In this document: positions 15,094 to 63,880 of the stretch, piece after piece
Layout of the letters: every line of letters starts with the position of its first letter
Position numbering within the stretch: the first letter of the stretch is position 1
Assembly (NCBI GenBank): GCA_012838865.1
Contig: DUOK01000026.1
Location: forward strand, 1 to 64,000
DNA length: 64,000 nt
DNA from: Bacteroidales bacterium
GTDB lineage: Bacteria; Bacteroidota; Bacteroidia; Bacteroidales; Marinilabiliaceae
Reading direction: 5' to 3'
Notes under the pieces: model-generated
Databases searched by the model: none
Seen by the model: the letters and a program-made list of their open reading frames with translations, nothing else
What the model was told of the DNA's origin: nothing
Translations under genes and position numbers: made by a program

Positions 15094-16557
15094 ATGGATA
15101 GCCTGCAAGCCATAATCGACGTTGTCAACCCCCTGTTGTTGGTCGCCTACATCATCAGCATTCTGGTGGTGGTGGTTTTCACCGTGCTCGAAAACCGCAA
15201 TCCGCTGAAAACCATATCCTGGGTCCTGGTGCTCCTGATGCTGCCGGTACTCGGCTTCGTCTTTTTCATCTTCTTCGGACAAAATTTTCGCAAGGAAAAA
15301 ATCATTGCCCGCAAGGGGCTCCGCAATGTGGACCTGCTCTCCAATCTGGCCCACGCCCAGATTCACCGTCTGTCGGAGGGCCATATGTTCGACAATCAGG
15401 CTCTGGAAGAAAAGCGGACCCTCATCCAGCTGCTGCTCAACAACAGCAATGCCGTAGTTACCGTAGGCAACCAGCTTCAAATCCTCCAGAACGGGGGCCC
15501 CACTTTTGAGGCCATACTGGAAGCACTCGAGGCTGCCGAGAAGTTCATCCACCTCGAATACTACATCTTTGCCGACGACGAAATCGGCGGAAAAATAAAA
15601 GCCATGCTCAAGCGCAAAGCTGCTCAGGGCGTGGAGGTTCGTCTGATTGTAGACGACGTAGGCAGCTGGGAGCTGAAAAAGCCCTTTTTCCGCGAAATGT
15701 GGAACGCCGGCATCCAGGCCTATTCCTTTTTGCAAGTCCGCTTCCCCAACCTCACCAGCAAGGTCAACTACCGCAACCACCGAAAGATTGTAATCATCGA
15801 CGGACATACCGGTTTCTTAGGCGGCATCAACATTGCCGACCGCTACGAAAAAGGAAGCAAGGACTACGGCATCTGGCGCGACACCCACATGCGCATCAGC
15901 GGTGATGCCGTAAAGACCCTCCAGACCGTATTCTTAACCGACTGGTTTTTTGTGAGTCAGCACGAGCTGCACGACCGCAAATACTTCCCCACTATGGAAG
16001 CACAAGGTCAAAAAATGGTGCAAATCGTAGCCAGCGGACCCGATTCCGATTGGCCCGGCATTATGATGGGCATATTTCACGCCATCGTTGCAGCCCGTCG
16101 CTATGTTTACATCGCCACCCCCTATTTTATGCCCAGCGAGAGCGTATTGATGGCACTGAAGACAGCCGCGCTGGGCGGAGTAGATGTGCGCATCCTCATT
16201 CCAGAACGCAGCGACGCCCACATCACCCTGCTCTCCTCCCGCTCCTTCATCCGCGAAATGCTCGATGCCCAGGTGCGCTTCTACTTTTACCAAAAAGGCT
16301 TCCTGCACTCCAAGGTCATGGTGGTCGACGACCAGGTAGGCATCGTTGGCTCTGCCAACATGGACTTCCGCAGTTTTGAACAAAACTACGAAACAACCGC
16401 CTTTATTTTTGATGAAGAAACCGCTCAGGACTTGCAAAGCACCTTCCTCAACGACCTCAAAGACTCCCGGGAAATCACCCTCTACGACTGGCCCCAACGC
16501 CCCAAAACCGAAAAAATCAAAGAATCCTTCGCCCGCCTCGTCAGTCCCCTGCTATAA
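15094..16557 (+). CDS. cls: Cardiolipin synthase (PLD family)
   Basis: Two HxK motifs: NHRKIVIIDGHTGFLGGINIADRY and HSKVMVVDDQVGIVGSANMDFRS; N-terminal TM helices. Confidence 0.93.
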   Translation: MDSLQAIIDVVNPLLLVAYIISILVVVVFTVLENRNPLKTISWVLVLLMLPVLGFVFFIFFGQNFRKEKIIARKGLRNVDLLSNLAHAQIHRLSEGHMFDNQALEEKRTLIQLLLNNSNAVVTVGNQLQILQNGGPTFEAILEALEAAEKFIHLEYYIFADDEIGGKIKAMLKRKAAQGVEVRLIVDDVGSWELKKPFFREMWNAGIQAYSFLQVRFPNLTSKVNYRNHRKIVIIDGHTGFLGGINIADRYEKGSKDYGIWRDTHMRISGDAVKTLQTVFLTDWFFVSQHELHDRKYFPTMEAQGQKMVQIVASGPDSDWPGIMMGIFHAIVAARRYVYIATPYFMPSESVLMALKTAALGGVDVRILIPERSDAHITLLSSRSFIREMLDAQVRFYFYQKGFLHSKVMVVDDQVGIVGSANMDFRSFEQNYETTAFIFDEETAQDLQSTFLNDLKDSREITLYDWPQRPKTEKIKESFARLVSPLL

Positions 16558-16561
16558 AACA

Positions 16562-16713
16562 GTTACGGGGCACAGGTGCCCCGTAACCGCGGACTTCAGT
16601 CCGCTTTATAGAACAGGCGCTCCGCGCCTGACCACTTCCTCCCAATCATAACCCAGGGTTTCAACCCTGGGAGCAGCGTAGGGAGCAGCGTGCGCCACAG
16701 CGTAGCGCCGCAC
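16562..16713. repeat. Cluster of heterogeneous perfect mini-palindromes
   Basis: Stem pairs at 16562-16587, 16589-16604, 16614-16630, 16652-16671 plus weaker 16690-16713; different stem sequences, 2-3 nt loops. Confidence 0.85.
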
Positions 16714-16722
16714 ACCCCAGCC

Positions 16723-18915
16723 CTAAAACAAGTGATACGACACCGCAACGCCCACCGTCACGACCGAAGCCATCACCATCAGTTTAATCAGAATGTTCAA
16801 GCTCGGACCGGAAGTATCCTTAAATGGATCGCCCACAGTATCGCCAATAACCGTAGCTTTGTGTGTTTCGGAACCCTTGCCACCATGGTGACCTTCCTCC
16901 ACGTACTTCTTGGCATTGTCCCAGGCGCCACCCGCATTGGCCATAAAAATAGCCAGGGCAAAACCACTGGTAATGGTACCCAAAAGCAGACCGGCAATAC
17001 CCGGAACGCCAAATACCACGCCCACCACGACAGGGATCAACAGCGCCAACAAAGAAGGGGTCATCATTTCGCGCTGCGCCCCTTTGGTAGAGATCTCCAC
17101 ACAACGGGCATAATCGGGCTCAGAAGTACCTTCCATAATGCCGGGAATCGACTTAAACTGGCGACGCACCTCATCCACCATCTTCTGCGCTGCACGTCCC
17201 ACCGCATTCATGGTCATGCCACTAAAAAGAAAGACCGACATCACACCCAAAAACATGCCCACAATCACCATGGGGTTCATCAGATGGATTTCGTAATGCT
17301 GTACAAAGTCGTAAAACGAAGCCTCAATAGCCGGCACATTATTGATCAATGTTTCCGGGGCATCCAAAATCTTCACAAACATCATGCGCACTTCCTCAAA
17401 GTAAGAAGCCAAAAGCGCCAGGGCTGTCAAAGCCGCACTACCAATGGCAAAGCCCTTACCGGTAGCGGCAGTCGTGTTCCCCAAAGAATCGAGCGCATCG
17501 GTACGTTGACGCACCTCGGCACCCAGACCACTCATCTCGGCATTTCCGCCGGCATTGTCGGCAATGGGGCCGTAAGCATCGGTGGCCAAGGTAATCCCCA
17601 GAGTGGAAAGCATACCCACTGCAGCAATACCAATCCCATAGAGACCAATATTGAGACTACCCATATCGAATTTAAAACCGGTAGCGAAAGCAAAGGAAAG
17701 CGTAATGGCCACCACTATAATAACCAGAGGAACAGCAGCCGAAATCAAGCCCGTACCCACACCACTAATGATAACGGTAGCGGGACCTGTCTCACCGGAA
17801 CGCGCAATGTTCTGGGTGGGCTTGTAAGCCGAAGCCGTAAAATACTCCGTAGACTGGCCAATACCAATACCCGCAAGCAGTCCCACCACAATTGAGCCCC
17901 AAATACCAACATAATTGGGCAGACCCAGATATTTTAGAATAAAGAAGGAAGCAACAACAATAAGCAGGGCACTTACATTAACCCCAAGGCCGAGTGATTT
18001 CAACAATTGCTTTTGCGTGGCCCCCTCCCGGGTGCGCACCATAAACACTCCGGCAATCGAAAGGAGGGTACCCACAGCCGCAATAAGCATGGGTGCCAGC
18101 ACGGCATTCAACTGCAGCTCTTCCATACTCATAAAGGCCGCAGCACCCAGCAGGGCAGAAGCCAGAATCGACGCAGCAAAAGACTCAAACAAGTCGGCCC
18201 CCATCCCGGCCACATCACCTACATTGTCGCCCACATTATCGGCAATGGTTGCCGGATTGCGCGGATCGTCCTCAGGAATCCCCGCTTCAACCTTACCCAC
18301 CAGGTCGGCCCCCACATCGGCAGCCTTGGTATAGATCCCCCCGCCCACACGAGCAAACAAGGCCTGGGTAGAAGCGCCCATCCCAAAGGTCAGCATAATG
18401 GCTGTGATGGTCATCAACTTATAGCCCCCGGCCATATCTTCAATAAAATGATTCAGAATCAGGAACCAAATGGAAATATCCATAAGCACCAGACCCACAA
18501 CCACCAGGCCCATCACCGCACCGCTGCGGAAAGCCAGCTTGAGTCCCCCATTAAGAGAGGTGCGACAAGCATGGGCCACCCGTGCCGAGGCAAAGGTTGC
18601 CGCCTTCATACCAAAGAAACCGGCCAGTCCCGAAAAGGCACCCCCGGTAATAAAGGCAAAGGGGACCCACTTATTCTGCACCCCCAGACCGTAAGCCAAA
18701 ATCGAAAAGATGATGGTAATGACAATAAAGACAACAATAACAATTTTGTATTGCTGACGCAAATAGGCACCGGCACCCGTACGCACATGTTGGGCTATCC
18801 GCTTCATGGTATCGGTACCTTCCGAACTTTTCATCATCTGCCTGAAAAAAACATAGGCAAAGGTCAACGCCAATAGCGATATCAGAGGAACAATCGCAAA
18901 AATCGAGTTAAGCAT
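16723..18915 (-). CDS. hppA: Membrane-bound ion-translocating pyrophosphatase
   Basis: [65 protein letters not shown]. Confidence 0.95.
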
Positions 18916-63846: not shown

Positions 63847-63880
63847 AAAAAGAGGAGCGCAGCAGCGCTCCTCTTTTTTT
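63847..63880 (+). terminator. Terminator of pheS
   Basis: AAAAGAGGAGCGC-agca-GCGCTCCTCTTTTTTTT. Confidence 0.92.

Follow-up and report, generated by a model that had tools for sequence, protein, structure and literature searches.

The REP and BIME sequences with their RAYT (TnpA-REP) proteins, TnpA-Y1 class 2 (PMC6006769, PMC3116915), comprise short intergenic hairpins present in tens of copies, arranged as inverted pairs and clusters, together with one single-copy Y1 gene that is flanked by its own repeats. The insertion sequences of the IS200/IS605 group (subclass 1.1, including IS608 and ISDra2) also have a protein of the HUH/Y1 family, and small hairpins; by analogy, the hairpins described below might be recognized in single-stranded DNA. 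TnpA-Y1 subclass 1.2 has been described as having low copy number and no typical IS200 ends, with the entry 'REP: no' (Quentin et al. 2018, PMC6006769). Finally, the 'atypical secondary structures' of subclass 2.6 and class 3 (PMC6006769) are atypical hairpins without a GT[AG]G foot that have genomic copies elsewhere, in Bacteroidetes in the case of subclass 2.6. In the main text of open papers we found hairpin arrays of Bacteroidetes only in PMC6006769 and PMC3733652, and repeats of subclass 1.2 may have been reported before.

We have analyzed a 64-kb stretch of DNA (the window) from a metagenome-assembled genome of 3.08 Mb in 331 contigs that is 97% complete, here called the source genome (G000). 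The window contains a hairpin array between two convergent genes. The repeat family to which it belongs has the features of REP/RAYT systems that are listed above, but differs from them in several respects: each unit contains three different covarying hairpins, the GT[AG]G foot is missing, many of the Y1 genes have direct repeats at their flanks, and the protein is of class 1, subclass 1.2. This protein shares with the subclass the motif Y---Q--HH, a length of about 150 aa, low copy number and occurrence in Bacteroidetes; yet most of the members sampled here have hairpin arrays at their flanks, in some cases with copies dispersed elsewhere. Unlike IS200/IS605, the protein has the Y---Q--HH motif, the gene is single copy, there are no IS ends, and the ratio of units to gene is about 70:1. 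The likeness to subclass 2.6 and class 3 is in the hairpins described above, but those proteins are of another class, with a Y motif YIH[QN]NP or YV..EQ. We think it probable that this is a new variant of a REP/RAYT-like system, in which a Y1 protein mobilizes multi-hairpin units and replication slippage reshuffles them. Subclass 1.2, an IS200 relative described without IS ends, REPs or a known role, would gain from this candidate substrates and a testable role.

The hairpin array of the cls-hppA spacer

The cls (15094-16557, + strand) and hppA (16723-18915, - strand) genes are convergent, and the array fills the spacer between them (16558-16722). Its features are collected in Table 1. A preliminary description of this DNA had noted four perfect palindromes in the spacer followed by direct repeats and an imperfect GTGCG...CGCAC element. 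All are present; the direct repeats are GGGAGCAGCGT / AGCAGCGT at 16669-16690, with the GTGCG...CGCAC element, which is weak, after them. There are four perfect hairpins of at least 7 bp within 110 bp and 34 in the entire window, compared with 10-22 in shuffles of the whole window. When folded as single-stranded DNA the array has a free energy of -46.8 kcal/mol, against -24.8 +/- 2.7 kcal/mol for dinucleotide shuffles (z = -8.0). None of the array motifs has a second copy elsewhere in the window.

Table 1. Features of the hairpin array in the cls-hppA spacer (window coordinates)
Feature	Position	Strand	Remarks
Spacer hairpin, GTTACGGGGCAC-AG-GTGCCCCGTAAC	16562-16587	+	Core GGGGCACAGGTGCCCC; sits between two inverted units in complete elements
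Hairpin A, GCGGACT-TC-AGTCCGC	16589-16604	+	First hairpin of the three-hairpin unit; palindrome has 21 matches in the source genome
Complete unit A-B-C	16589-16671	+	Covariance-model match 1.4e-21, 100.9 bits (G000:C122)
Hairpin B, CAGGCGC-TCC-GCGCCTG	16614-16630	+	Most variable stem of the family
Linker between B and C, ACCACTTCCTCCCAATCATAA	16631-16651	+	Conserved, unpaired; AATMATRR nearly invariant
Hairpin C, CCCAGGGTT-TC-AACCCTGGG	16652-16671	+	Alternative version in the family: CCCAGGACT-TC-AGTCCTGGG
Tail, short direct repeats (GGGAGCAGCGTA GGGAGCAGCGT...)	16669-16714	+	Ends in imperfect GTGCG...CGCAC

The palindromes had initially been taken as unrelated, and the array as a shuffled mosaic. 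That description has to be replaced. Hairpins A, B and C form a fixed unit, often found as inverted pairs around a spacer, and the fourth hairpin is that of the spacer. The window copy consists of one unit with the second spacer hairpin in front of it. The outer stem of this hairpin is GTTAC in the window and GAGGC, CTATG or GCATT at other copies, with the variation compensated. Most probably, the window array arose by deletion from a non-autonomous repeat element that is dispersed in a Geofilum lineage.

Near the end of the window (63847-63878) there is also a 14-bp perfect stem, AAAAAGAGGAGCGC-AGCA-GCGCTCCTCTTTTT, that is terminator-like in both directions and unrelated to the array.

Anatomy and copies of the three-hairpin unit

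The sequence GCGGACTTCAGTCCGC has 21 matches in the source genome, and none for the reversed control. Behind nearly every copy the same elements follow in the same order, i.e. a GC hairpin and then CCCAGG..CCTGGG. Alignment of 33 copies defines a unit of 81-86 bp (about 83 bp). It begins with A = NNGGACT-TC-AGTCCNN, followed by about 9 nt, B with a variable GC stem and a loop of 3-5 nt, the linker ACCACTTCCTCCCAATCATAA, and finally C, which in the aligned copies is CCCAGG(ACT-TC-AGT or GTT-TC-AAC)CCTGGG. The sequence GGACTTCAGTCC is common to hairpins A and C in direct orientation. A complete element is about 300 bp in length, with two inverted units, C outermost, around a spacer that contains the hairpins TCGAGGCTCTGCCTCGA and GGGGCACNNGTGCCCC.

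With a covariance model, 71 units are detected in the source genome and 74 in Geofilum rhodophaeum. In its many copies the unit resembles REP elements, which are hairpin repeats of 20-65 nt between genes, and the sites examined are intergenic. The preliminary description had made other genomic copies the test of its view, and these have been found, both as the exact matches to hairpin A and as the covariance-model units. Contigs C10, C38, C121, C253 and C24 of the source genome start or finish inside a unit. The repeats have probably interrupted the assembly, and 71 is likely to be a lower bound.

The GT[AG]G tetranucleotide of REP elements is not present at the foot of A or C. The foot of A inside the stem is GCGG, GTGG, GGGG or CGGG, and C begins CCCAGG after CATAA or CATGG. 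The outer side of hairpin C has 7.7 repeated 7-mers per 100 bp, compared with 2.1 on shuffling and 0.64 in the window. The outer flanks of C are therefore rich in short tandem repeats, and the AGCAGCGT repeats of the window fit this general pattern. With genes assigned by a longest-ORF rule, and some sites counted in both genomes, 55 of the 82 gene sides that face unit sites are 3' ends, and the neighboring genes are convergent at 18, tandem at 19 and divergent at 4 sites (n = 41).

Stem sequences change in step

We have examined base pairing over 110 distinct copies. Standard pairs occupy 95.9% of pair cells compared with 82.2% when shuffled, and two-sided changes are found in 19 of the 22 stem pairs. 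Cells with double changes number 299, against 75 +/- 11 when shuffled and at most 63 with the partners slid; these figures are inflated by the kinship of the copies, which the slid control retains, and are also biased upward by fitting of the alignment to the structure. Hairpin B exists in 47 versions among 91 copies, and the linker before C is nearly invariant. The structure is preserved and the stem sequence is not, with the stems varying in step while the linker remains fixed. Selection for structure more than for sequence, which had been proposed from the window alone, is in keeping with this compensatory variation. The linker between B and C is a candidate guide or cleavage region. Arrays of this kind, perfectly paired and drifting in sequence, offer a means of telling templated repair apart from selection for structure.

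Comparison of orthologous sites in two Geofilum genomes

The two close Geofilum genomes provide a natural experiment in the gain, loss and rewriting of hairpin repeats. Their cls and hppA proteins are 99-100% identical. The cls-hppA spacer of G. rhodophaeum contains only CCCAGGACTGAAGTCCTGGGCCATGATTAGGACAGGATGGTGTGCCC, the left (opposite) end of an element, where the source genome has the right half, and in three other genomes (G001, G003 and G011) the site has neither half. The two spacers could have arisen from a single ancestral inverted pair by different deletions. A spacer fixed among relatives would have pointed to local terminators, according to the preliminary description; this spacer differs between them.

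We compared 16 orthologous sites, with flanks that are mostly 90-99% identical. At these sites modules have been lost, gained, multiplied in tandem or exchanged. The architecture is unchanged at one site, and unchanged except for two extra 247-bp tandem copies at another. The remainder exhibit partial or complete loss, tandem expansion (five units with a 125-bp period, against one), swapped hairpins and nested stems. In the clearest case G. rhodophaeum has a whole unit plus a 20-bp tail, where the source genome has two bases instead, and hairpin A starts precisely at the boundary. A neighboring module hairpin persists there, so this is not a virgin site, and none of the sites compared is an empty site free of module remnants. 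For the most part the differences resemble the products of deletion, slippage or tandem duplication.

Such changes are what might be expected of a structured satellite that needs no more than replication slippage, hairpin-templated template switching and gene conversion to expand and rearrange, with the Y1 gene merely residing in one of the arrays. Most of the site differences are indeed deletions at short direct repeats, tandem multiplication (in G. rhodophaeum 125 bp four times and 247 bp twice) and nested or extended stems, and the abundance of short tandem repeats in the outer tails is also consistent with this. But slippage cannot seed tens of unlinked loci. Moreover, as set out below, an orthologous Y1 gene under purifying selection is present exactly where the units are, and hairpin arrays with direct repeats flank many other genes of subclass 1.2. 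We therefore consider a satellite an unlikely explanation, and return to mobilization by the Y1 protein.

One locus of G. rhodophaeum (L205:10041-10090; G004:C1, about 250 kb) has a perfect stem of 24 bp, CCCAGGACTAACATCAACGGGGTT-TC-AACCCCGTTGATGTTAGTCCTGGG, that covers the final codons of the neighboring gene, including its stop codon; in the source genome the inner part alone is left. The stem may be a hairpin nested within hairpin C, or may have arisen by fold-back copying.

Distribution of the unit

Among 60 relatives the unit was found in just one, G. rhodophaeum HF401 (G004), which is of the same genus and accounts for the 74 copies. In three more genomes of the genus the covariance model detects no units, and in 56 further genomes it gives nothing above a chance-level likeness to hairpin C. 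Weak model matches beyond the genus, in G029, G052 and G060, were rejected as other hairpin families in which the last palindrome is similar. A pattern of hairpin C plus the linker was matched only by G. rhodophaeum among 85,462 species, each represented by one genome; the source genome may be outside this set.

A contig of 13.3 kb from a viral collection (IMG/VR UViG 3300027711_000359) has the hairpin arrays at each end, and its tRNA is like the one on contig C253 of the source genome. This contig is probably a prophage or a bacterial region, rather than a phage genome with units.

A subclass 1.2 Y1 gene accompanies the units

The source genome has exactly one Y1_Tnp gene (G000:C10:2630-3088), and so does G. 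rhodophaeum. The two are intact, 92% identical and at the same locus. In the source genome there are units about 270 bp upstream of the Y1 gene, and also downstream of the neighboring oxidoreductase gene. That of G. rhodophaeum adjoins the same oxidoreductase gene, with a unit array on the far side of the latter, and the contig stops shortly upstream of the Y1 gene. The organization is that of a REPtron, i.e. a single-copy Y1 gene flanked by dispersed repeats. No other genome of the 71-member family contains the orthologue. G002 and G003 have no Y1 gene, and the Y1 genes of G001 are different ones, with 31-37% identity. The values of dN/dS for the orthologous pair are 0.036/0.45 (NG86) and 0.038/0.34 (YN00), i.e. 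about 0.08-0.11, from which the gene is judged to be under purifying selection. The repeat is found only in the two genomes that have this Y1 orthologue. The co-occurrence of the exact unit with the gene, which rests on two related genomes, suggests a role for a supposedly partnerless subclass.

The Y1 protein has 153 aa, and the residues H55, H57, W95, Y115, Q119, H122 and H123 are invariant over 16 sequences. In addition to its length, low copy number and Y---Q--HH, it has the W-Q and DH[IV]H motifs of subclass 1.2. Its nearest solved structure is that of ISHp608 TnpA (2a6m, E = 5e-17). Compared with NCBIfam models it scores above the cut-off for IS200/IS605 TnpA (62 vs 55) and below that for REP transposases (19.5 vs 80 bits). 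Both this and the class 1.2 motif separate it from class 2 (RAYT). The link to a Y1/IS200-like transposase that had been suggested for the array is thus upheld in that there is one Y1_Tnp gene flanked by units, but the protein is of subclass 1.2 and is not a classical REP transposase.

The NCBIfam scores might indicate that the repeats are MITE-like, either the ends of a conventional IS200/IS605 insertion sequence or what remains of one, and not a REP-like system. The presence of GGACTTCAGTCC in A and C in direct orientation is likewise as in LE and RE hairpins. However, the gene is single copy and vertically placed, being at the same locus in both genomes, and neither multiple identical IS copies nor multiple mobile gene copies with LE/RE ends are found. 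In addition the units far outnumber the gene, and there are three hairpins per unit rather than one per end. An insertion sequence of this kind is improbable. Least probable of all are transcription terminators or mRNA-stabilizing structures selected between convergent genes, since although the sites lie behind gene 3' ends and the folds are very stable, a T-run follows the stems at chance level (1 match vs 0.9 expected), there is no Rfam family at the gathering score (two sub-threshold matches only), and termination needs neither three different successive hairpins, inverted pairs and a dispersed family, nor their absence from the same spacer in sister species.

Proposed mechanism

For the REP-like system that we favor, we infer mobilization and cleavage by this Y1 protein, the strand that is used, and the mechanism of correction. 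The HUH/Y1 protein of subclass 1.2, encoded within the unit array, would recognize the hairpins plus linker in single-stranded DNA, probably that of the lagging strand. By analogy with IS608 and with work on TnpA-REP, it would cut and rejoin the DNA there, so that units could spread to intergenic sites, mainly behind the ends of genes. Modules would then be deleted, multiplied and swapped as replication slips between hairpins and short direct repeats. Judging from the junctions, slippage probably occurs at repeats such as GGACTTCAGTCC of A and C and CTGGGG, making deletions and hybrids. The stems might stay perfectly paired through selection for a readable hairpin, through hairpin-templated correction, or both, such that the sequence drifts while the structure persists.

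Hairpins beside other subclass 1.2 genes

We extended the analysis to the surroundings of 45 further, distinct genes of subclass 1.2 found in relatives; these genes are the best search matches and not a random sample. The density of perfect GC hairpins is 3.5 per kb within 200 bp of these genes, 1.8 per kb at 200-400 bp and 0.06-0.18 per kb beyond 600 bp, compared with 0.063 per kb in shuffled sequence; the enrichment within 200 bp is about 30-fold. At least one hairpin lies within 600 bp of 30 of the genes, and 15 have none. When the two Geofilum genes are included, 23 out of 47 subclass 1.2 genes have direct repeats with 25 or more matched nt on both sides, and there are no inverted repeats of this kind. 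At 20 control loci of hppA there are 0.09 hairpins per kb, and none has such direct repeats.

The sequences of the hairpins differ from one Y1 lineage to another. The hairpin CCCCAGCCT of G005 has 16 copies, of which 10 are away from the gene, and it is not found in 12 other genomes. Of 34 genomes that have a subclass 1.2 gene, 9 contain hairpins with CGACTCC at sites away from it, compared with 0 of 21 genomes that lack such a gene (one-sided p = 0.008, uncorrected for phylogeny and for a pattern that was chosen beside such genes). It is conceivable, and we put it forward tentatively, that the subclass 1.2 HUH/Y1 proteins of Bacteroidota constitute a separate REP-like system, in which structure and not stem sequence is recognized and inherited. 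Hairpin-templated copying would rewrite the stems in step while the linker and geometry remained fixed, and each Y1 lineage would have its own unit. In G081 the three-hairpin module is confined to the neighborhood of the Y1 gene and has no dispersed copies, which counts against the general claim.

Two further arrangements were observed. Beside the subclass 1.2 Y1 gene of G066:C46 (L115:850-1400) there is a tandem array of units of about 52 bp, in which the stems differ but are perfectly paired (CGACTCC/GGAGTCG, CAACCCC/GGGGTTG and CGACCCC/GGGGTCG). On G013:C446 (L097) a Y1 gene is present twice in tandem, and the same set of three different hairpins, directly oriented, flanks each copy.
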